Below are positions 1,928 to 38,793 of a stretch of 64,000 bases of DNA, in pieces (positions within the stretch are counted from its first letter, which is position 1; each line of letters opens with the position of its first letter). The position numbers and the translations under genes were made by a program. The notes beneath the pieces are model-generated. The model saw only the letters and a program-made list of their open reading frames with translations, had not been told where the DNA came from and searched no databases. Location: NCBI GenBank assembly GCA_934668875.1, contig CAKUON010000004.1:124001-188000 (forward strand), written 5' to 3'. Origin of the DNA: an uncultured Collinsella sp. GTDB lineage: Bacteria > Actinomycetota > Coriobacteriia > Coriobacteriales > Coriobacteriaceae.

Positions 1928-2834
1928 TGCCGAACGCGTGACGTTTACCAAGAAAAAGAAGACGGTTGCTTGTCCCGTGCCCTTGGCACCGCTTGCCGAC
2001 ACACATGCGCATCTGCTTTCGTTCTGGGGCAAGGATGTGCCCGAGACACTCGTGCGTGCCAAGGCGGCGGGCATCGACCTGTTGGTGACGGTCTTCGATC
2101 CCATTGCCGATAAGCGCAGCGTGACGGACTATAGCGACTGGCTGACGCGCGAGATTCTGCCGATGCAGGATATCCCGCAGATCAAGTATCTTGCCGGCGT
2201 GCATCCGTATGGCGCGCCGGACTATACCGACGACGTTCACGCACAGGTCGTTGCCGCGCTCGATGACCCTTTGTGCGCCGGTATCGGCGAGATTGGTCTG
2301 GACTACCACATGGATTACGACGACGACATCGCGCCGGCGCCCCACAGCGTGCAGATTGACTGCATGACGCGCCAGCTCGAAGTTGCCGTGCGCCGCAATG
2401 TGCCGGTGGAGCTGCATCTGCGTCACGAGGACATGGACCAGGAGCGTACCTCGCACGTGGACGCCTACAACGTGCTTCGTGAGGTGGGCGTGCCCCAGAC
2501 CGGTTGTGTGCTGCACTGCTTTGGCGAGGACCGCGCCACGATGGAGCGCTTTGTGGAGCTGGGCTGCTATATCGCCTATGGTGGTGCGGCCACCTTTAAG
2601 CGCAACGACGACGTGCGCGAGGCATTTGCGGCGACCCCGCTCGACCGCATTTTGTTCGAGACGGATTGCCCGTATATGGCTCCGGAGCCCATCCGCGGTC
2701 TTGAATGCGAGCCCGCAATGATCTCCATTACGGCAAACGCGCTGGTTAACGACCGTGTCGATCGCACTGGTGAGGACGCCGAGACAATCGCGCAAGCCGC
2801 TTGGGAGAATGCCTGCAAACTTTTTCAAAAATAG
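1917..2834 (+). CDS. TatD-family metal-dependent hydrolase
   Basis: Predicted deoxyribonuclease-like amidohydrolase of the TatD family (TIM barrel, two divalent metals). Of its 305 residues, DTHAH supplies the first metal ligands, GEIGLDYH the bridging Glu, LHLRHE and LHCFGED further His ligands, and LFETDCPYMAPEP the final Asp. The chosen ATG lies inside the end of rsmA (11-base overlap); a longer frame exists upstream but would sit deep inside rsmA. The lysine-rich N-terminus before the barrel (about residues 10-14) is unusual for the family but short. The exact substrate is not deducible. Confidence 0.9.
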   Translation: MTLNAERVTFTKKKKTVACPVPLAPLADTHAHLLSFWGKDVPETLVRAKAAGIDLLVTVFDPIADKRSVTDYSDWLTREILPMQDIPQIKYLAGVHPYGAPDYTDDVHAQVVAALDDPLCAGIGEIGLDYHMDYDDDIAPAPHSVQIDCMTRQLEVAVRRNVPVELHLRHEDMDQERTSHVDAYNVLREVGVPQTGCVLHCFGEDRATMERFVELGCYIAYGGAATFKRNDDVREAFAATPLDRILFETDCPYMAPEPIRGLECEPAMISITANALVNDRVDRTGEDAETIAQAAWENACKLFQK

Positions 2835-2837
2835 TTC

Positions 2838-2866
2838 TTGCGTTCGTGGTGGCGCTCCGTTATTCT
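2838..2866 (+). promoter_or_regulatory. Promoter of tRNA-Leu
   Basis: TTGCGT at 2838 and TATTCT at 2861 are separated by exactly 17 bases, and the tRNA begins 11 bases after the -10 box. Confidence 0.6.
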
Positions 2867-2877
2867 AATTTCTGCAC

Positions 2878-2964
2878 GCGGGCGTGGCGGAATTGGCAGA
2901 CGCGTACGGTTCAGGTCCGTATGGGGGCAACCCCATGAAGGTTCAAGTCCTTTCGCCCGCACCA
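2878..2964 (+). tRNA. tRNA-Leu (anticodon CAG)
   Basis: An 87-base class II tRNA with acceptor stem GCGGGCG pairing with CGCCCGC, encoded CCA, a long variable arm (TGGGGGCAACCCCA), T-loop TTCAAGT, and anticodon stem ACGG/CCGT around loop TTCAGGT, giving anticodon CAG. Its 3' part is duplicated 189 bases downstream (see the repeat at 3007). Confidence 0.96.
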
Positions 2965-2973
2965 TTAAATGAG

Positions 2974-3001
2974 AGAGCTCCCAGCAATGGGAGCTTTTTT
3001 G
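2974..3001 (+). terminator. Terminator of tRNA-Leu
   Basis: AGCTCCCAGCAATGGGAGCT folds into a short hairpin and is followed by six T. The same hairpin recurs at 3162 after the duplicated tRNA end. Confidence 0.85.
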
Positions 3002-3006
3002 TTATG

Positions 3007-3195
3007 GGCTCATCGCAGGGACTTGAACCTGCGAAGGAGCGAGCGTTAAGAAAACGCGGAGCGTTTTTAGCGAGCTGGCGAGGACGCCGGCAGGCGGCCG
3101 AAGCCGGTGCGGATCCGCGGAGCGGATACGCGGACGTCCTTTCGCCCGCACCATTGATTGAAAGAGCTCCCAGCAATGGGGGCTTTTTTGTTATG
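3007..3195 (+). repeat. tRNA-end duplicating palindromic unit, copy A (tRNA-Leu)
   Basis: After the tRNA-Leu terminator comes an inverted copy of the tRNA's T-arm (GGACTTGAACC, 3019-3029). A GC-rich core with three hairpins follows: AAAACGC/GCGTTTT near 3051, CCGGC/GCCGG near 3087 and ATCCGC/GCGGAT near 3113. Then comes a second copy of the tRNA 3' end with its terminator (3136-3195, 56 of 60 bases identical to 2947-3006). Two more units of this kind sit at the tRNA-Arg genes. No protein is plausibly encoded; frames through it are chance. What makes and moves it is unknown. Confidence 0.8.
3162..3191 (+). terminator. Duplicated terminator at the end of copy A
   Basis: Near-copy of the tRNA-Leu terminator with one base changed in the stem, followed by T6. 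It now precedes the SPFH gene. Confidence 0.7.
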
Positions 3196-3252
3196 CACGA
3201 TCTCCTTGGACGGGTATCCTAATGGCAACGTGTGCCTATCAGAGGAGAGACC

Positions 3253-4191
3253 ATGCTGTTTTCCGGTATCATCGCTGCCCTTACGAGCCTTTTGATTCCC
3301 ATCATCATCCTGCTGCTGTTGCTTCCCAACGCCTGCTACGTCGTTGAGCAGCAGCACGCTGTGATCATCGAGCGCTTGGGTAAGTTCAATCGTATCGTCA
3401 ACGCGGGCTTCCACGTGAAGGTGCCCGTGATCGACCGCAAGGCCGCCACGGTGAGCCTGCGCACCATGAAAAACGGTTTTGGCATCGACGTTAAGACCCA
3501 GGACAACGTGACCATCGGCCTTGAGGTCTCCGCTCAGTACCACGTGAGCTACGACATGGGCGCCGGCCCGGCAGATTCGGGCATCTACAAGAGCTACTAC
3601 ATGCTGCAGGAGCCCGTCGACCAGATGCGTGACTTCATCACCGACGCCCTGCGCTCTTCGATTCCTGTCTACACACTCGATGAGGTCTTTGCCAAGAAGG
3701 ATGACATCGCCAAGGATGTCAACGCTACCGTTTCCGAGCAGATGGCCGCCTACGGCTTCACCCTCGTGTCGACGCTCATCACCAAAATCGCACTGCCGAC
3801 CGAGGTTGAGAACTCCATGAACGACATCAACGCCGCCCAGCGCAAGCGCGCTGCGGCACAGGAGCTCGCCGAGGCAGACCGCATCAAGCGCGTTACCGAG
3901 GCGACCGCCGAGGCCGAGGCAATGGAAAAGGCGGGCGAGGGCATCGCCAACCAGCGCAAGGCCATCGCACTGGGTATCAAAGATTCGCTCGAGATCATCC
4001 AGGAGACGGGTGTCGGCAATGACGAGGCCAACCAACTGTTCATGTTTACGCAGTGGTCCGAGATGATGACGGAGTTCGCTCGCACGGGTAAAACCTCGAC
4101 GGTCGTGCTGCCGAGCGACTTTTCGCAGTCGGCCTCGATGTTCGAGCAGATGCTGGCCGCCGGCAAAGTTCAAAACGATTCGAAGGAGTAG
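3253..4191 (+). CDS. SPFH/Band 7 domain membrane protein (stomatin-like)
   Basis: A 312-residue protein with one N-terminal membrane segment (about residues 4-24, rich in Ile and Leu) followed by the Band 7 fold starting VVEQQHAVIIERLGKF and a long Ala/Glu-rich coiled coil (about 190-240). Such proteins oligomerise at membranes as scaffolds for microdomains or proteases. No NfeD-type partner or protease gene is adjacent, so the role here is open. The ATG at 3253 has AGAGGAGAG just upstream; an in-frame GTG 21 bases earlier is less likely. It ends 6 bases before rlmH, suggesting co-transcription. Confidence 0.88.
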   Translation: MLFSGIIAALTSLLIPIIILLLLLPNACYVVEQQHAVIIERLGKFNRIVNAGFHVKVPVIDRKAATVSLRTMKNGFGIDVKTQDNVTIGLEVSAQYHVSYDMGAGPADSGIYKSYYMLQEPVDQMRDFITDALRSSIPVYTLDEVFAKKDDIAKDVNATVSEQMAAYGFTLVSTLITKIALPTEVENSMNDINAAQRKRAAAQELAEADRIKRVTEATAEAEAMEKAGEGIANQRKAIALGIKDSLEIIQETGVGNDEANQLFMFTQWSEMMTEFARTGKTSTVVLPSDFSQSASMFEQMLAAGKVQNDSKE

Positions 4192-7868: not shown

Positions 7869-7945
7869 GCGGCGTTACCTCAGCTGGATAGAGGGTCTGA
7901 CTACGAATCAGAACGTCATAGGTTCGAATCCTATACGCCGCACCA
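7869..7945 (+). tRNA. tRNA-Arg (anticodon ACG), copy 1
   Basis: A 77-base tRNA with acceptor GCGGCGT/ACGCCGC, encoded CCA, T-loop TTCGAAT and anticodon stem TCTGA/TCAGA around CTACGAA, giving anticodon ACG (read as ICG after deamination). It is identical in sequence to the copies at 8301 and 8566. Confidence 0.97.
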
Positions 7946-7955
7946 ATTGAAATTG

Positions 7956-7985
7956 AAAGCCTCCGGCAACGGGGGCTTTTCTTTT
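7956..7985 (+). terminator. Terminator of tRNA-Arg copy 1
   Basis: GCCTCC and GGGGGC flank GGCAAC and are followed by TTTTCTTTT. The same hairpin recurs at 8146, 8388, 8652 and 8843. Confidence 0.8.
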
Positions 7986-8000
7986 ATGGCAACACCGCAT

Positions 8001-8222
8001 GGATTCGAACCTCGGTCGAGGCGCGGGCGTCAAGAAAACGCGGAGCGTTTTTAGCCCGCGGGCGAGCGCGCCGGCAGGCGGGCGAAGCCGGTGCGGATCC
8101 GCGAAGCGGATGCGCGGAATCCTATACGCCGCACCAATTGAAATTGAAAGCCTCCGGCAACGGGGGCTTTTCTTTTATGGCGACACCGCATGGATTCGAA
8201 CCTCGGTCGAGGCGCGAGCGTC
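8001..8222 (+). repeat. tRNA-end duplicating palindromic unit, copy B, plus truncated second unit
   Basis: An inverted T-arm (GGATTCGAACC, 8001-8011) leads into the same three-hairpin core seen at 3031. A duplicate of the tRNA-Arg 3' end, terminator and following 46 bases comes next, starting at 8117 and 191 bases from the original. The duplicated stretch 8117-8222 matches 7926-8031 at 104 of 106 bases, so it already contains the start of another unit (second inverted T-arm at 8192), which breaks off at about 8222. Confidence 0.8.
8146..8176 (+). terminator. Duplicated terminator in copy B
   Basis: Same hairpin and T tract as at 7956, following the duplicated tRNA-Arg 3' end. Confidence 0.65.
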
Positions 8223-8259
8223 TTAATCATCACTTCGTAAAATTTTTCCAAATTGTCGC

Positions 8260-8565: not shown

Positions 8566-8642
8566 GCGGCGTTACCTCAGCTGGATAGAGGGTCTGACTA
8601 CGAATCAGAACGTCATAGGTTCGAATCCTATACGCCGCACCA
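8566..8642 (+). tRNA. tRNA-Arg (anticodon ACG), copy 3
   Basis: Identical 77-base tRNA to copies 1 and 2, CCA encoded. It is followed by a terminator and then by palindromic unit copy C. Confidence 0.97.
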
Positions 8643-8651
8643 ATTGAAATT

Positions 8652-8681
8652 GAAAGCCTCCGGCAACGGGGGCTTTTCTTT
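8652..8681 (+). terminator. Terminator of tRNA-Arg copy 3
   Basis: Same GCCTCC/GGGGGC hairpin and T-rich tract as copy 1. Confidence 0.8.
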
Positions 8682-8697
8682 TATGGCAACACCGCAT

Positions 8698-8872
8698 GGA
8701 TTCGAACCTCGGTCGAGGCGCGGGCGTAAAGAAAACGCGGAGCGTTTTTAGCCCGCGGGCGAGGACGCCGGCAGGCGGCCGAAGCCGGTGCGGATCCGCG
8801 CAAGCGGATGCGCGGAATCCTATACGCCGCACCATTTGAGATCAAAGCCTCCGGCAACGGGGGCTTTTTTGT
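8698..8872 (+). repeat. tRNA-end duplicating palindromic unit, copy C
   Basis: An inverted T-arm (8698-8708) is followed by the three-hairpin core, in which the last hairpin has loop GCAA instead of GAA or GGA while its stem ATCCGC/GCGGAT is kept. A duplicated tRNA-Arg 3' end from 8815 (192 bases after the original at 8623) ends in a T6 terminator at 8843-8872. Stem conservation with loop change points to selection on the folded form. Confidence 0.8.
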
Positions 8873-8958: not shown

Positions 8959-11400
8959 GTGGCAGAGCGTCCGACTTATAAGCTCAAGTTTCTCGATCCC
9001 AAGAAGCGCTTTCCGGCGATGCCCGAACAGCCCGCGGGACGCTCGTATGGCGTTGTCTGGAAACTCTTTGGCGACGATCCGCGTGAATCATGCTACGCCG
9101 TTGAATTCGTCGGTAAGAGCCATGTGTCACTTTTAGGCTACGTGAGCGTTTCGGGCGAAGTGTACAAGGTGGACCGTCCCGTTAGCGAGGCGCCGTTGCC
9201 CGATGATCCCGATATGCAACTGGTTCTTGATGAGTCCGACTTCAGCATTGGCGAGATTGCGGTAAGGGGCACCGATGGGACGATGCGTCCCCGGGCGCGG
9301 GTCATCGGCTCTCCAAAAGGCCCCATGCGCGAGCAGTCCGATCGCGAGACATGGAATTCGGCCCGCAGCCTCCCTTACGGTGAGTTCATGGCATCTATGT
9401 TCTTGCGCTACGTGATATTCGCCGATTCCGAAAATGCTATCGCGAGCACGTCAAACACCGACAGGCTCGACGAGAGCACGCACAATGTCGTCGACAAGAT
9501 TAAGCTCGTCAAGCTGCCCGAGCCGGTCGAAGTGTTTCTGGGCTTTGATTCGACGCCACTTCCCGATGCCATCGAGACGCTGCTCTACCGCATTGACCAT
9601 AAGGACAATCCGAGCGGCATCGAGCGTTATGCCGCGGCCCTGATGGGTGAAGTCAATCTGCCTCGCCTGCGCACCATAGCGGCAAAGACTGAAATGAACT
9701 TGGCCCGCATCGATCGCTCGAAGCTTTTCTATCTAAATTTCGATCGCAGCCTGTTAGATCAAGATGAGATCGACACCTTGCTTGCCATTGAGTGTCGCCT
9801 GAACCGCCTCTCCGGCATCCTTGATCGCATCGGGGCCGGATTGGCCCCCGCAGCCTCGTCGCCGAGCCTTGAGGGCTGTGCACTCTTTGACTCGTGGCAT
9901 ATCGCTAAAACGACCAACGATGTCCCCCGGTTGCTCGAAACGCTGTCGAGCGACAACCCGTGGGCCAAGCCGGGGACGGTTGCGTGCCGGCCTGGTGGCG
10001 AGTGGGACGTGCGCACCCGCTTTGCGCGAATTGTCGAGGCGCTTAACGTGGTCACACGGCTTGACTATACCTATCGAGTGAACGTTGCCGAGGGGATTAT
10101 GCTCGTCCAGTTTGGGCGCTCTGTCGTTGATGCCATGCCGCAACGTGAATACGATGCTCAGGATGACGCCTGGCGCGAGCTGGACGAGGGTGTGCGCGAG
10201 ATCTGGGCGGCGGAGCACGACGCGCGCGTAGCGCTCACGCTTGCGGCGGCTTGCTTTGCCGCGGGTGCCTGCATCACGCGCTGCTACGTGCAGATTGAGG
10301 CTCCCGACGATGAGCAGGATGTGCACATCGTCGCAACGTATTCCTTTGCCCGTGCCGAGTATCTTGCCGATTGTGTTCCCGTCGCCAAGGATCTTGAGAG
10401 CATGGATATGGACGGTATGCCTTGCAAGCGCATGCTCGAGGCATATGAGGCGACCACGCCGGATATGATTGAGCCAGCGGAGGTTCACGCTCGCCCGCGT
10501 GACGACCATCGTCCGCTGCCGCCGGCGTTGCGCGATCTGCTGCTTGCCGATACAGCTGACGAGTTGGAAGTCATGGAAGAGGACGACGACCCGTATGTGG
10601 CGCGCGTCGTTGAATTGCGCGAGCAGTCTAAAACTGACCGTGCAGGTGCATTCGAGGGCTTTTCTCGTTTGGCCGAGGAGCTGGAGGCCAAGTGTGCCGT
10701 TGCCGAGCTCTTGGCAACGGGGCCGGTCCAAACGCAGTTCTGCGACAACCAGTTGGTACGCATGGTGCTGCCGGTGATGGAGGAGGATCGCTCCGTGCGC
10801 ATTCTGCGCGCGCCCGATGCACTGTACTTTGCCCAGCACGAGATTTGCAGCTTTTACGCCGAGCAGGAAGATTTTGAGCGCGCTCTGCCCGAGGTGCGTC
10901 GCCTTTACGATTTGGCGCGCTCGTCTATGCAATCGCATTTTGCGTTGATTAACGTGCTGGCGCGTTTGGAGCGGTTTGACGAGGTTATCGAGGTGGCCCG
11001 TCACGGTTTGCGCATCGCGAGCGATCGTCCCTCGATTGGCTACCTGTTTTACCGTTTGGCATTTGCGTACTGGAACTGCGATCAGCTCGACCTGGCGCTG
11101 GCGTGCTACCGTCTCGTGCCGCGCGGCGAGGAGTCGGGCAGCAGCGCGCTGGAGGAAATGCAGGGCCTCATGAACGAGATGGGCGTCAATGAGCCTCCGA
11201 CGTTCGATGATGCGGTCGAGACCATCCGTAAGGCGGGGCTCGAGTTGCCGCCGGTGCCCGCCGTGACCAATCAGCTGGCAGATGCTGCCGTGCAACTCGT
11301 CGATAACGGCTTCTTCTTCCTGGCGCGTGGCTGTATCTTCCAAATGTGGCGCACCATGGGCAACGACGAGCTCGGCTCCCTCAACCGCTCGCTGGGGTAG
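8959..11400 (+). CDS. Large hypothetical protein with C-terminal TPR-like repeats, 813 residues
   Basis: I do not recognise a named family. There is no signal peptide or membrane span, so it is probably cytoplasmic. The first 600 residues are a mixed alpha/beta region with no catalytic motif that I can identify. From about residue 640 there are helical pairs with TPR spacing (YAEQEDFERALPEVRRLYDLA, LARLERFDEVIEVARHGLRIA, YRLAFAYWNCDQLDLALACYRL). Translation starts at GTG, with a weak upstream site CAGGGTGAT. It stands alone between the tRNA-Arg cluster and the AAA ATPase gene. TPR proteins usually scaffold partners; the partner is unknown. Confidence 0.8.
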   Translation: MAERPTYKLKFLDPKKRFPAMPEQPAGRSYGVVWKLFGDDPRESCYAVEFVGKSHVSLLGYVSVSGEVYKVDRPVSEAPLPDDPDMQLVLDESDFSIGEIAVRGTDGTMRPRARVIGSPKGPMREQSDRETWNSARSLPYGEFMASMFLRYVIFADSENAIASTSNTDRLDESTHNVVDKIKLVKLPEPVEVFLGFDSTPLPDAIETLLYRIDHKDNPSGIERYAAALMGEVNLPRLRTIAAKTEMNLARIDRSKLFYLNFDRSLLDQDEIDTLLAIECRLNRLSGILDRIGAGLAPAASSPSLEGCALFDSWHIAKTTNDVPRLLETLSSDNPWAKPGTVACRPGGEWDVRTRFARIVEALNVVTRLDYTYRVNVAEGIMLVQFGRSVVDAMPQREYDAQDDAWRELDEGVREIWAAEHDARVALTLAAACFAAGACITRCYVQIEAPDDEQDVHIVATYSFARAEYLADCVPVAKDLESMDMDGMPCKRMLEAYEATTPDMIEPAEVHARPRDDHRPLPPALRDLLLADTADELEVMEEDDDPYVARVVELREQSKTDRAGAFEGFSRLAEELEAKCAVAELLATGPVQTQFCDNQLVRMVLPVMEEDRSVRILRAPDALYFAQHEICSFYAEQEDFERALPEVRRLYDLARSSMQSHFALINVLARLERFDEVIEVARHGLRIASDRPSIGYLFYRLAFAYWNCDQLDLALACYRLVPRGEESGSSALEEMQGLMNEMGVNEPPTFDDAVETIRKAGLELPPVPAVTNQLADAAVQLVDNGFFFLARGCIFQMWRTMGNDELGSLNRSLG

Positions 11401-11490
11401 GGGCGGCATAGAGGGGCTGCGCCGTGCTATTTGTATCGGCACGGGCGAGAGGACCCGACAGGGTCGGTAAGGCATAAAGCCGCCGAGCCT

Positions 11491-11546
11491 GCTAAAACTG
11501 TTAAACTCTGCTAAAGTTGCTAAACTTTGTTAAAGTTGTTAAAACT
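11491..11546. repeat. Iteron-like array upstream of the AAA+ ATPase gene
   Basis: Six consecutive 9-10 base units of the form G(C/T)TAAA(A/G/C)(C/T)T, beginning at 11491, 11500, 11510, 11519, 11529 and 11538. Within them AACTTT-GTT-AAAGTT (11523-11537) is a perfect dyad. The helical-turn spacing fits cooperative binding of one protein, most simply the product of the gene that starts 17 bases later. Confidence 0.65.
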
Positions 11547-11562
11547 AGCAGAGGAGGGCCGA

Positions 11563-12645
11563 ATGTCTAAAGCTATTAATCCTTTTAAGCCAACGGCGGG
11601 AATGAATCCGCCTGAGCTTATCGGACGCGACGCTGTTTTGGATGACTTTGCCGAGGCTCTGGAGAACGGTCCCGGCGCCCCCGATCGGCTCATGCGTATC
11701 TCTGGTGTTCGTGGCACGGGTAAAACGGTGCTCCTTAACGCATTGGGTGATCTTGCGCGCAAAAAAGGATTCGAAGTCGTTGACGTCGCCTCAAATACCG
11801 GTTTTTGCAATAGAATTCTCGAGGCTCTGCAGCGAAATGTTCGTCTTGAATCAATGTCGATTTCTCCGTCGATTCTAGGAGTCAGCCTTGGCTCCGTGGA
11901 GGTGTCGAAGTCGGCGTCCCATCTGGGCGAGGCGATGTACGAAGCCGCGAAGCGCGGCGGCTTGCTCATTACGCTCGATGAGATTCAGGACGCCTCAACT
12001 GAGGAAATGCGAGAGCTGGGCAATGAAATGCAGCTCTTGATTCGCCAGGGGGCGAATGTCGCCTTTGCATTCGCTGGTTTGCCAACGTCGGTGGATGGCG
12101 TGGTGGTGGATGATACGTTGACGTTCCTTCAGAGGGCGAAGCATATTGAACTTACGCGGCTTTCAGATTTTGAAGTCGGCGGATCGTTTGAGGATACGAT
12201 GAGGCGTGCGGGCAAGGAACTCGACGAAGGCGTTGCTGAGCTTTTAACAAAGGCTTCGGCGGGCTATCCCTTTATGGTCCAGCTGGTCGGATATTACGCT
12301 TGGCAGGTTGCTGCGCGCAGCGGGGCAGAGAGCGTGGACGAAGAGGCAGCTCGCAAGGGTATCCAGGCGGCTCTTGATAGTTTTAATGCTATGGTGATTG
12401 CCCCTGCGTTGCGCAGGGTGTCGGAGCGGCAGTTTCAGTATCTCGCGGCGATGGCGCAATGTGAGGGCGATGAGATTGCGAACGGCGATATCGCCAAAAA
12501 GATGGGCTTGCCGGCGAACAAAGTCGGGTCGTATCGCAAGCGCCTGATCGATGCGGGACTGATTGAACCTGCAGGCTACGGCTGTGTTTCGTTCGCAATT
12601 CCGTACATGCGCGATTATCTGTTGGAAACCGTTCGAAAGGGCTAA
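11563..12645 (+). CDS. AAA+ ATPase with C-terminal winged-helix domain
   Basis: A 360-residue protein of the Orc1/Cdc6-like or AAA_16 ATPase type. It has Walker A GVRGTGKT (48-55), Walker B LLITLDEIQ (134-142) with an adjacent acidic pair, a sensor-like AFAGLP near 166-171, and from about 290 a winged-helix ending (GDIAKKMGLPANKVGSYRKRLIDAGLIEP). The layout suggests ATP-dependent DNA binding; such proteins occur in Coriobacteria and archaea without an assigned role. The ATG at 11563 follows GAGGAGGG. The G+C is lower than that of its neighbours, and iteron-like repeats lie directly upstream, which hints at a mobile or plasmid-like past. Confidence 0.82.
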   Translation: MSKAINPFKPTAGMNPPELIGRDAVLDDFAEALENGPGAPDRLMRISGVRGTGKTVLLNALGDLARKKGFEVVDVASNTGFCNRILEALQRNVRLESMSISPSILGVSLGSVEVSKSASHLGEAMYEAAKRGGLLITLDEIQDASTEEMRELGNEMQLLIRQGANVAFAFAGLPTSVDGVVVDDTLTFLQRAKHIELTRLSDFEVGGSFEDTMRRAGKELDEGVAELLTKASAGYPFMVQLVGYYAWQVAARSGAESVDEEAARKGIQAALDSFNAMVIAPALRRVSERQFQYLAAMAQCEGDEIANGDIAKKMGLPANKVGSYRKRLIDAGLIEPAGYGCVSFAIPYMRDYLLETVRKG

Positions 12646-12924: not shown

Positions 12925-13015
12925 GGAGAGCTGACCGAGAGGCCGAAGGTGCTCGCCTGCTAAGCGAGTATGCCCCAAAAGGGCATCTGGGGTTCGAATC
13001 CCCAGCTCTCCGCCA
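12925..13015 (+). tRNA. tRNA-Ser (anticodon GCT)
   Basis: A 91-base class II tRNA with acceptor GGAGAGC/GCTCTCC, encoded CCA, long variable arm TATGCCCCAAAAGGGCATC, T-loop TTCGAAT and anticodon stem CTCGC/GCGAG around CTGCTAA, giving anticodon GCT. Confidence 0.96.
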
Positions 13016-13069: not shown

Positions 13070-13087
13070 AGCTGGGGATTCGAACCC
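13070..13087 (-). repeat. Inverted copy of the tRNA-Ser T-arm
   Basis: AGCTGGGGATTCGAACCC is an exact 18-base reverse complement of 12990-13007 inside tRNA-Ser (T-arm plus part of the acceptor). It sits just after the tRNA terminator, in the same place as the inverted T-arms after tRNA-Leu and tRNA-Arg, but no GC-rich core follows it. Confidence 0.7.
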
Positions 13088-35979: not shown

Positions 35980-38793
35980 GTGGCTGAGAACCCAAGCAAC
36001 CAGTCTGTACCCGAAGCCGCGGCGCGTGTCGCTGCCGTGGTCAACCGCCTCGTTAACCGAATCGGCTCGAATGCCGAGTCCAGGGAGCGTCTCGCCGAGA
36101 TCGAGATTCCCGAGGAGCTGCGCGACAATCTGGCGCTGTTCCTGCGCCTGGAGCGTCGTGTGCTTAGCGAGTATGATCCTGAGATCGCGGACCTGTTCGA
36201 CAAGATCCTGTCGGCCGAGATTGTGGCCAATGCCGGCAACCCCGGTACCCGCGCTGCCGACGAGGCCGTCGACGAGCAGGGCGTGCCCACCGCCGACGAG
36301 TCCACCGCCGTGGCATTCCGTGAGGTCGTCGATCTGATCGACAGCTTGCCGCTCGATAAGCAGCAGGTCATCGTTCGCGCCTTTACGAGCTTCTTCCACC
36401 TGGCAAACCTGTCGGAGGAGAACTACCGTGTGGCGCAGCTGCGCGAGCGCGAGGCCGGTGCGTCGACCGATACCGAGGTCGATCCCGCCAACGAGCTCAC
36501 CGTCGCTTATCACCAGCTGGTGAATGAGCTGGGCGTCGAGGGCGCCAACGAACTGCTCGGCAAGCTTGAGTTCCATCCCGTCTTTACCGCGCATCCCACT
36601 GAGGCCCGTCGCAAGGCCGTCGAGGGCAAGATTCGCCGTATCTCCAACCTGCTGGAGGAGCGTCCGCGTCTGGGCGGCTCCGACCTGGTGGAGAACGAGC
36701 GCCATATGCTGCAGGAGATCGACGCCCTGGTGCGTACGAGCCCCATCGCGCTCAAGAAGCCCACGCCGGTCGAGGAAGCCGATACCATCATCGACATCTT
36801 CGATAACACGCTGTTCGACGTCATCCCCGTCATCTATCGTCGCTTTGACGACTGGGTGCTGGGCGACAAGGCCGGTACCGTGCCGCCGCTGTGCCCGGCG
36901 TTCTTCCATCCCGGCAGCTGGATCGGTTCCGACCGCGACGGTAACCCCAACGTCACCGCCAAGGTGAGCCGTGAGGTCGCCGCCAAGTATTTCACCCACA
37001 TGGTGCTCAAGCTCGAGGACAAGTGCCGCCGCATCGGCCGTAACCTCACGCTCGAGGCCACTTACAGCAAGCCGTCTGCCGAGCTCATCAACCTGTGGAA
37101 CCATCAGGTCGAGATGAGCACCCAGTACACGGCCCGCGCCGAGCTGATCTCCGAGCACGAGCCGCATCGCGCCGTCATGCTCGTCATGGCCGACCGTCTG
37201 AACGCCACCGTGCGCCGTATCACCGACACCATGTATCACAGCGCAGACGAGTTCCTGGATGACCTGCGCGTCGTCCAGCGCTCGCTGGCCGCCTGCGGTG
37301 CCGTCCGTGCCGCCTACGGCCCGGTCCAGACCATCATCTGGCAGGTCGAGTCCTTCGGCTTCCACATGGTCGAGATGGAGTTCCGTCAGCACTCCGTGGT
37401 GCACGCCCGCGCCCTCAAGGATATCCACGAGAACGGTATCCATGGCGACCTGCAGCCCATGACGCGCGAGGTCATCGATACCTTCCGTGCCATCGGTTCC
37501 ATCCAAAAGCGCTATGGCAAGAAGATGGCGCACCGCTACATCATCTCGTTCACCAAGAGCGCCCAGCATGTGGCCGACGTCTTTGAGCTTGCCCACCTGT
37601 CCTTCGCACATGAGGAGGATGTCCCCGAGCTCGACGTGATTCCGCTGTTCGAGCAGCTCGAGGACCTCGAGGGCTGTGTCGACGTGCTCGACCAGATGCT
37701 TACGCTGCCCGTGGTGCAAAAGCGCCTTGCCCAGACCAACCGCCGCATGGAGGTCATGCTGGGCTATTCCGACTCCTCCAAGGATGCCGGTCCTACCACG
37801 GCCATGCTCGCGCTGCACTCCGCGCAGGAGCGCATCGCCAAGTGGGCCGAGAAGAACGATATCGACCTGGTGCTCATGCACGGCCGCGGCGGTGCCGTGG
37901 GCCGTGGCGGCGGTCCGGCCAACAAGGCCGTGCTGGCGCAGCCCAAGGGTTCGGTCAACTGCTTCTTTAAGCTCACCGAGCAGGGCGAGGTCATCTTTGC
38001 CCGTTACGGCAACCGCACGCTGGCTCAGCGCCATGTTGAGTCCGTTGCCGCCGCAACGCTTTTGCAGTCGGCCCCGAGTGTCGAGAAGACCAACACCGAG
38101 ACCACGCAGAAGTTCTGGGATATGGCCGAGAAGCTCAACGCCGCAAGCCACGAGCGCTATCTGGACCTGCTGAACACCGAGGACTTTACACCGTGGTTCT
38201 CGACCGTGACGCCGCTGACCGAGGTCGGCCTGCTGCCGATCGGCTCGCGTCCCGCCAAGCGCGGTTTGGGTGCCAAGTCGCTCGACGACCTGCGTACCAT
38301 TCCGTGGATCTTCAGCTGGAGCCAGGCGCGCATCAATCTGGCCGCCTGGTACGGCCTGGGTACCGCCTGCGAGCAGTTTGGCGATCTGGACCAGCTTAAG
38401 GCTGCCTACCAGGAGTGGCCGTTCTTCCGCACCTTTATCGACAACATCGAGATGTCGATCGCCAAGACCGACCAGCGCATCGCCAAGATGTATCTGCACC
38501 TGGGCGATCGCCAGGATCTGTCCGAGAAGGTCTTCACCGAGATGCAGCTCACGCGTAAGTGGGTCCTTGCTATCGTCGGTGACGAGTGGCCGCTGCAGCG
38601 TCGTCGCGTGCTCGGCTGCGCCGTCCGCGTGCGTAACCCCTATGTCGACGCCCTATCCATCGCCCAGGTCCGCGCCCTTCGCGAGGTGCGTATGAACCAG
38701 GACGAGATGGCCGAGGAGAAGAAGGCCGAGTACATGAGCCTGATTCTTTCGACTGTGACCGGCGTCTCGGCAGGATTGCAGAACACGGGGTAA
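35980..38793 (+). CDS. ppc: Phosphoenolpyruvate carboxylase
   Basis: Forms oxaloacetate from PEP and bicarbonate to refill the TCA branch. The 937 residues contain the catalytic His in FTAHPTEARRK, SDRDGNPNVT, GYSDSSKDAG, the mobile loop GRGGAVGRGGGP, and the C-terminal QNTG. I chose GTG 35980 because GGAGG lies four bases upstream; the ATG at 35968 has AGGAGG only one base away, which is too close. It stands alone, followed by palindrome E4. Confidence 0.95.
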   Translation: MAENPSNQSVPEAAARVAAVVNRLVNRIGSNAESRERLAEIEIPEELRDNLALFLRLERRVLSEYDPEIADLFDKILSAEIVANAGNPGTRAADEAVDEQGVPTADESTAVAFREVVDLIDSLPLDKQQVIVRAFTSFFHLANLSEENYRVAQLREREAGASTDTEVDPANELTVAYHQLVNELGVEGANELLGKLEFHPVFTAHPTEARRKAVEGKIRRISNLLEERPRLGGSDLVENERHMLQEIDALVRTSPIALKKPTPVEEADTIIDIFDNTLFDVIPVIYRRFDDWVLGDKAGTVPPLCPAFFHPGSWIGSDRDGNPNVTAKVSREVAAKYFTHMVLKLEDKCRRIGRNLTLEATYSKPSAELINLWNHQVEMSTQYTARAELISEHEPHRAVMLVMADRLNATVRRITDTMYHSADEFLDDLRVVQRSLAACGAVRAAYGPVQTIIWQVESFGFHMVEMEFRQHSVVHARALKDIHENGIHGDLQPMTREVIDTFRAIGSIQKRYGKKMAHRYIISFTKSAQHVADVFELAHLSFAHEEDVPELDVIPLFEQLEDLEGCVDVLDQMLTLPVVQKRLAQTNRRMEVMLGYSDSSKDAGPTTAMLALHSAQERIAKWAEKNDIDLVLMHGRGGAVGRGGGPANKAVLAQPKGSVNCFFKLTEQGEVIFARYGNRTLAQRHVESVAAATLLQSAPSVEKTNTETTQKFWDMAEKLNAASHERYLDLLNTEDFTPWFSTVTPLTEVGLLPIGSRPAKRGLGAKSLDDLRTIPWIFSWSQARINLAAWYGLGTACEQFGDLDQLKAAYQEWPFFRTFIDNIEMSIAKTDQRIAKMYLHLGDRQDLSEKVFTEMQLTRKWVLAIVGDEWPLQRRRVLGCAVRVRNPYVDALSIAQVRALREVRMNQDEMAEEKKAEYMSLILSTVTGVSAGLQNTG

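Follow-up and report, generated by a model that had tools for sequence, protein, structure and literature searches.

The units described here are real and widespread, and by their layout they are a variant of an obscure known kind of repeat, the tRNA-linked repeats (TLRs). The starting point was the region behind a tRNA-Leu(CAG) gene in the window, that is, the whole stretch of 64,000 nucleotides of Collinsella DNA that was analysed. A unit begins with the 3' end of its tRNA (positions 59-76, N59-A76), followed by a spacer that often holds a terminator, an inverted copy of 12 bases of the T-arm (tRNA positions 51-62; anti-T), three helices (P2, P3 and P4) and, once more, N59-A76. Judging from sequence comparisons, we lean towards the view that the unit is a minimal mobile element which an enzyme from elsewhere would insert at the T-loop between A58 and N59, and which would be guided or recognised through its T-arm copy; such an enzyme would likely act in trans. 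The features of the tRNA-Leu unit are as follows.

2878..2964, + strand: tRNA-Leu(CAG), called by ARAGORN; T-arm positions 51-62 at 2939-2950
2947..3135, + strand: full unit, 189 bp, with N59-A76, terminator, inverted T-arm and three-hairpin core
2947..2964, + strand: first copy of tRNA positions 59-76 (18 bases), within the functional tRNA; from sequence and position analysis
2976..3000, + strand: terminator-like hairpin and T run inside the unit; from sequence
3019..3030, + strand: anti-T, the inverted copy of tRNA-Leu T-arm positions 51-62; from sequence and own-match statistics
3038..3076, + strand: helix P2, from covariation; lower part 3038-3044/3070-3076, with tandem G-A pairs
3051-3057/3061-3067, + strand: upper hairpin of P2, with a GGA loop
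3078..3104, + strand: helix P3, from covariation; 3078-3079/3103-3104 and 3082-3088/3093-3099, loop GGCA
3109..3131, + strand: helix P4, from covariation; adjoins the right junction, GGA loop
3136..3195, + strand: second copy; tRNA positions 59-76 at 3136-3153, then the terminator of the downstream sequence

The 60-bp repeat reported in the initial annotation (2947-3006 against 3136-3195) holds at 93% identity with a spacing of 189, and the inverted T-arm that it placed at 3019-3029 is confirmed and stands above chance in motif counts. The motif GGAYTYGAACC has 10 matches against 0.14 expected, five of them being the T-arms of the tRNAs themselves and five inverted copies. With up to three mismatches allowed, AAAACGCGRAGCGTTTT has 6 matches (three places on both strands) against 0.34 expected from dinucleotide shuffles, a count reached in none of 100 shuffles. 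Two of the three hairpins proposed earlier, AAAACGC/GCGTTTT and ATCCGC/GCGGAT, both covary, whereas the third, CCGGC/GCCGG, turned out to be an alternative pairing; covariation favours GGACGCC/GGCGGCC instead (3082-3088 with 3093-3099), with one mismatched pair in the tRNA-Leu copy. That list also lacked the lower helix with the tandem G-A pair (3038-3044 with 3070-3076). R1, a covariance model built from 49 sequences, matches the tRNA-Leu unit at 3010-3142 with 146.7 bits, and the junction was set as in the allele comparison below. Among Rfam families, only tRNA matches this region of the window above the cut-off, and 2965-3200 found no match in phage records. Plasmid records gave 39 matches; among the 20 of these that were listed, a Collinsella aerofaciens record alone covers 77% of the query, the others covering 26-30%, roughly the tRNA part.

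In total, the window holds three full units (behind tRNA-Leu and two tRNA-Arg genes) and two truncated ones. The initial annotation had not included the following units and remnant.

7928..8118, + strand: full unit behind tRNA-Arg(ACG) 7869-7945; anti-T 8001-8012; R1 match 7992-8126, 143.1 bits
8119..8221, + strand: truncated unit with N59-A76, terminator, anti-T (8192-8203) and the left part of P2; R1 match 8183-8248, 22.7 bits
8301..8377, + strand: tRNA-Arg(ACG) without a unit, the middle of three tRNA-Arg(ACG) genes and a natural empty neighbour
8625..8816, + strand: full unit behind tRNA-Arg(ACG) 8566-8642; anti-T 8698-8709; R1 match 8689-8824, 138.0 bits; second N59-A76 copy at 8817-8834
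13076..13087, + strand: lone anti-T of tRNA-Ser(GCT) 12925-13015, matching at 12/12 bases

Full units are present at the same tRNA-Ser(GCT) in three other genomes (G001, G002 and G009; L225-L227), of which G001 is the genome nearest to the window, with 32% of sampled words in common. Weak R1 matches elsewhere in the window, the best of which scores 17.8 bits (36393-36511), we take as chance.

To describe the position of the units we classified 206 of them, drawn from three sets of R1 matches: 142 of 186 (matches of at least 43 bits, with one contig-edge fragment dropped and 43 weaker matches left unclassified), 32 of 46 (13 repeat places already counted and one weak match dropped) and 32 of 36 (the four weakest dropped). 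As many as 164 of the 206 lie at most 130 nt behind a tRNA or tmRNA called by ARAGORN, on the same strand. Another 27 are members of arrays; for 25 of them the array begins at a tRNA or tmRNA, and for two it is cut by a contig edge. A further 10 lie at contig edges, and five were at first left without an assigned gene. When these five were read by eye, a tRNA or tmRNA 3' end was found directly upstream in all of them: a tRNA-Gly cut at its 5' side (L053), two tmRNAs missed by ARAGORN (L087, L189), a tmRNA cut by an inserted element (L057) and a tRNA-like end (L186). In other words, every one of the 194 decidable units follows the 3' end of a tRNA or tmRNA gene, either immediately or via an array, the other 12 being on contig edges. 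The contrary pattern, cores often lying away from tRNA genes and without duplication of the tRNA end, did not occur. Tabulating the host genes, as the initial annotation had suggested, gave 20 tRNA kinds (name plus anticodon), seven of which were seen once, plus tmRNA; since genomes were picked for having matches, these counts speak to position and not to frequency.

Two side observations concern the surroundings of such loci. At L057 (4575-6158; contig C6 of G001), a large-serine-recombinase-like ORF adjoins the last bases of the tmRNA, and units follow; an element seems to have inserted into the 3' end of tmRNA, splitting that end off from the remainder of the gene. A different repeat, marked by an inner palindrome (CGTACATAAAGTACG or similar, ACGTATTGAGATACG), lies downstream of several unit loci (L199 and L210, both in G336, and L141); it looks like a separate repeat family.

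The inverted T-arm is specific to the tRNA that carries the unit. In 157 of 164 units, each placed independently, the anti-T matches the 11-mer of its own tRNA (positions 52-62) best of the set. Across 117 distinct units, each of positions 51-62 is complementary to the own tRNA in 94-100% of cases, and none of positions 40-50 and 63-76 exceeds 58%. These own values lean upward, since the best own match defined the place and since the stretch is itself part of the R1 model. Against other tRNAs, complementarity drops to 29% at position 59 and to 48% at position 51. The right-hand N59-A76 copy is identical at 18/18 bases in 89 of the 117 units, the Leu and Arg copies of the window being exact, and agrees at 8-17 of 18 bases in the other 28, which include tmRNA units with a shorter copy. 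The same position analysis bears out the break inside the T-loop that had been read from the tRNA-Leu repeat. In 81 of 117 units, identity with the tRNA already begins 2-5 bases ahead of N59, so the start of the unit is not fixed; for this reason, we set aside casposase-like target duplication, as well as reverse transcription stopping after A58.

Some units depart from the common layout. Behind tRNA-Ser(CGA) in G336, a unit (L190) ends like the 3' end of tRNA-Ser(GCT) and not like that of Ser(CGA); it is possibly a recombination product of two unit loci. Behind tRNA-Gly(CCC), short extra units retain P4 with its linker ahead of a further N59-A76 copy (L003 1712-1756, L046, L088, L123), which may indicate the minimum needed.

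The comparison of strains for occupied and empty sites, also put forward in the initial annotation, was informative at tRNA-Gly(GCC), where alleles differ by exactly one unit, whether gained or lost. In four genomes (G002, G005, G011 and G021) the Gly-Cys-Gly tRNA operon is empty and runs as ...GGTTCGA|GCCCC... into one terminator. In G004 and G026, exactly one unit is added to this empty allele, between A58 and N59; the unit brings a different terminator, after which the empty-allele sequence resumes. In G003, one unit precedes the other type of flank, and this flank occurs without a full unit in G008, G009, G010, G018, G019 and G024, where it retains the inverted T-arm and the left end of the unit. 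Both flank types thus exist occupied and empty. G035 has a unit as well, and in the 72% complete assembly of G033 a unit and the remnant type lie on separate contigs. The proposal of a unit that is very small and non-coding and restores the tRNA end accordingly draws support from these one-unit alleles, the break in the T-loop and the position of all 194 units. The empty alleles may, on the other hand, be precise losses between the 18-base repeats. This is part of the main rival, next after the mobile element: a host structured RNA (a small RNA or a 3' processing element) retained because it serves a function in tRNA transcripts, its copies being multiplied by tandem duplication and homogenised by gene conversion. 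We regard such an origin as rather unlikely.

Inheritance by locus speaks in its favour. In a close group of the window's genus, cores at the same tRNA in different genomes are 91.4% identical (1226 pairs). Cores at different tRNAs of one genome share 78.5% (204 pairs), and those with neither tRNA nor genome in common 79.0% (4544 pairs). Here the units follow the locus and not the genome, which looks like mostly vertical inheritance. The reverse is seen in family f25, where identity is 86.9% at different tRNAs of one genome (10 pairs), 58.4% at the same tRNA of different genomes (2 pairs) and 59.4% for cores that share neither (43 pairs). Family f5 gives a mixed picture (75.6% for the same tRNA, 62.0% for the same genome, 54.5% for neither). 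Moreover, the units at tRNA-Ser(GCT) belong to different subfamilies in two genomes of one genus, G337 and G370. A host RNA alone does not predict different subfamilies at one tRNA within one genus, nor an anti-T that matches its own tRNA, nor a single T-loop junction behind 20 tRNA kinds and tmRNA. Nonetheless, it is in this area that the mobile element meets its weakest step. In G380, nearly identical cores stand behind Leu(TAA), Gly(TCC) and Thr(CGT), which have T-arm positions 51-62 in common, and each unit is flanked on both sides by the 3' end of its own tRNA. The circle formed by a classical integrase would carry the tRNA end of the donor, and this leaves own 3' ends at new tRNAs unexplained. 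Either insertion duplicates the target end, or gene conversion shifts cores between pre-existing units.

The fold of the core is supported by covariation. In 49 aligned units 86% of cells pair, and 18 of 38 pairs change on both sides, compared with 11.6 in shuffles, none of 500 of which was as high. The covariation score is 0.226 against 0.096 for shuffled and at most 0.085 for slid controls, although the latter favour the drawn structure, as it was drawn from the same sequences. Further pair types are at the level of the shuffles (40 vs 39.5). One pair below P2 occurs in all four Watson-Crick forms, and the tandem G-A pair is present in 38 of 49 units and alternates with GG/CC in nine. A GNA or GNRA loop caps P2 in 47 of 49 units and P4 in 41, while the P3 loop is mostly GNCA; for the inverted T-arm hairpin as drawn, 58% of cells pair. 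With the inverted T-arm and the tandem pair excluded, G-T mispairs outnumber A-C mispairs by 19 to 5. This bias and the GNA/GNRA loops point to the tRNA-sense strand as the one that would fold, either as RNA or as single-stranded DNA. Covariation on this strand, with the same 19 to 5 ratio, speaks for a host RNA; the terminator-like hairpin between tRNA and unit in many of the copies read argues against it.

The core is not limited to the loci of the window: a search across Coriobacteriia genomes found it to be widespread. With BLAST, it matched 34 of 43 genomes of the genus; with R1, units were found in 49 of the family's 65 genomes (5 of 6 genera), in 88 of 396 genomes of the class (30 of 153 genera) and in 12 of 396 genomes of the phylum, all of these counts being lower bounds owing to stricter filters in searches of more than 40 genomes. 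Among the 12 is a genome from outside the class (G571) with a real unit behind tRNA-Ser(GGA). In an uncultured Clostridia genome (L441), tRNA-Gly(TCC) is followed by two units in tandem, recognised by eye and layout; R1 gives the first of them only 21.9 bits. Viral contigs were scanned with short core motifs (at least 120 stretches in one scan and 52 in another), and of the 132 loci passed to R1 (80 of the 120 and all 52) the best scored 21.7 bits, so that no phage copy was found among them. A pattern based on the architecture picked out 32 viral contigs; in four (L459, L477, L484 and L487) an own-matching anti-T goes with an N59-A76 copy of at least 17/18, and this pair is absent from the remaining ones. 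On L487, an array of at least three units like the RtT RNA (see below) lies at 9966-10660 behind a tRNA-Ser 3' end (named by reading, as ARAGORN gave no call), and the contig has integrase-like ORFs at 1-996 and 11020-12453.

The closest known kind, to which the initial annotation made no connection, is the TLRs of E. coli. According to PMC8144298, which cites Egan and Landy 1978 and Rudd 1999, these repeats were first reported in 1978, number 22 at ten loci in K-12, repeat 18-19 bases of the 3' end of the upstream RNA gene and thus far 'have no known function', a role being then proposed for three copies in rRNA operons. The latter are transcribed, processed and bind Hfq and CsrA (PMC8144298), which lends some weight to a host RNA. 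In eight E. coli regions we found an exact N59-A76 copy at 8 of 33 tRNA genes. The inverted T-arm matches at 11/12 bases in lysQ and lysV, at 9/12 in two tyr copies and at 7/12 or fewer in four shortened lys copies; the tyrT repeat, read as sequence, has exact N59-A76 copies, the 9/12 inverted T-arm and a closing stem. The shortened TLRs of K-12 lysT, lysW, lysY and lysZ (L490) are 80 nt long and have exact N59-A76 copies without the inverted T-arm. Like E. coli TLRs, Coriobacteriia-type units lie directly downstream of the tRNA on the same strand (194/194 decidable), repeat its 18-base 3' end (exactly in 89/117) and form tandem copies (27/206 in arrays). Unlike them, they occur with more tRNA kinds plus tmRNA, usually keep a full anti-T of their own and have cores for which no sequence match to the E. 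coli cores was found.

The RtT RNA (RF00391), which is the tyrT repeat, has the same layout as the units, and the tandem G-A motif noted for it in PMC7657543 is also found in P2. The RF00391 model has four matches in E. coli. It also matches two units of the L487 array (54.0 and 53.8 bits against a cut-off of 45), an array that has both N59-A76 copies and an anti-T matching its own tRNA. In window positions 2800-3300, and likewise at 13 related loci, it has no match up to E 1. It is by layout that we would class the units as TLRs. On a possible common descent with the E. coli copies, the shared layout and anti-T stand beside the lack of an RF00391 match in the window stretch and at the 13 loci, with the L487 array bridging the two partly. 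A literature search that covered few subscription papers returned nothing on Coriobacteriia units or on an inverted T-arm, and within the same scope PMC8144298 was the one paper found to treat TLRs as a class.

An intact tRNA with a displaced 3' fragment and a break in the T region also recalls the tRNA/tmRNA-targeted genomic islands collected by Islander (PMC4383910), which keeps candidates of 2-200 kb with an integrase gene. The units differ in their length of about 190 bp and in having their own inverted T-arm, and no integrase gene lies inside the 189-bp unit of the window. They might still be scars of large tRNA-targeting islands, with left and right ends fused after loss of the cargo. 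Islands are classically recognised by a 3' piece of a tRNA lying behind the intact gene (PMC4383910), and separable left and right modules do occur, as at tRNA-Gly(CCC) in L003. However, none of the loci fetched contains an island with such ends, none of the 132 viral-contig loci exceeds 22 bits, and the core is conserved as one structure across tRNAs, which makes this origin very unlikely.

Searches for an enzyme linked to the units found none, whether among IS110 and Y1 transposases (65 genomes) or among PF00589 recombinases (14 genomes). IS110 (DEDD transposase) is present in 35 of 65 genomes and absent from G045, G047, G021 and G035, each of which has 17-20 R1 matches. Y1 transposase is present in 53 of 65 and absent from G045, G047, G015, G017 and G025 despite their units; G045 and G047, with 20 R1 matches each, lack both. 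Two PF00589 genes were found in G015, which has units, and also in G023, G027, G052 and G057, which by R1 have none; two such genes per genome are presumably XerC and XerD, and a tyrosine recombinase may still be involved. It is from the unit-rich genomes devoid of IS110 or Y1 and from this PF00589 pattern that we conclude that no enzyme is linked. IS110 and Y1 were consequently rejected as resident requirements. The G291 array has a 2.5-kb gap, which was examined for an autonomous version of the unit; it held none, being the space between two tRNA-Ser genes that both have units. The initial annotation had also considered a REP-like unit spread by a RayT-type enzyme and a co-occurring RayT-like gene; neither is borne out in the genomes without Y1. 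More generally, a structured non-coding unit with a target-matching stretch resembles a guide, and the units could serve as ends for a transposition system of the IS110 (bridge RNA) or REP/RayT (Y1) type that acts in trans. The same absences (IS110 in four unit-bearing genomes, Y1 in five) mostly refute a resident requirement, and, even though an enzyme may have been lost in the past, we see hardly any chance for this origin. That no dedicated enzyme was found is at the same time in line with a host RNA.

Coming back to the mobile element that we favour, its position, one-unit alleles, own anti-T, covarying structure and change of subfamily (f25; G337 vs G370) speak for it, whereas the vertical pattern in the window's genus and the failure to find a linked enzyme or an autonomous relative speak against it, as does the fact that neither a circle nor a transcript nor a transposition event came to light. 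Its movement might proceed as follows. The unit would be cut out or copied as DNA; the tRNA-sense strand would fold, the inverted T-arm pairing with the right-hand half of the T-arm; and a recombinase would recognise the folded end and join it to the T-loop of a tRNA gene having the same 12 bases. The unit would bring or regenerate positions 59-76, often together with a terminator, so that the tRNA stays intact. Folded single-strand ends beside a fixed crossover point are also a property of integron attC sites and IS200/IS605 ends; for the units, having no linked enzyme, this is a resemblance only.

As a more daring and, in our opinion, doubtful extension, TLRs might be a bacteria-wide class of the smallest target-programmed mobile elements. 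They would combine a 12-base guide to the host T-arm (positions 51-62), a single-strand fold, precise insertion after A58 and the use of a recombinase that belongs to the cell or to tRNA-targeting elements passing through it, and a change of the guide would open a new tRNA to them. Be that as it may, the layout is now seen behind 20 tRNA kinds and tmRNA in Coriobacteriia, as well as in another class, in a Clostridia genome and in arrays on four viral contigs. With the own inverted T-arm, the covarying fold and the empty alleles, what was an E. coli curiosity becomes a testable class. Mobile units would rank with the smallest target-matched elements known, whereas immobile ones would represent a widespread RNA attached to tRNA genes.
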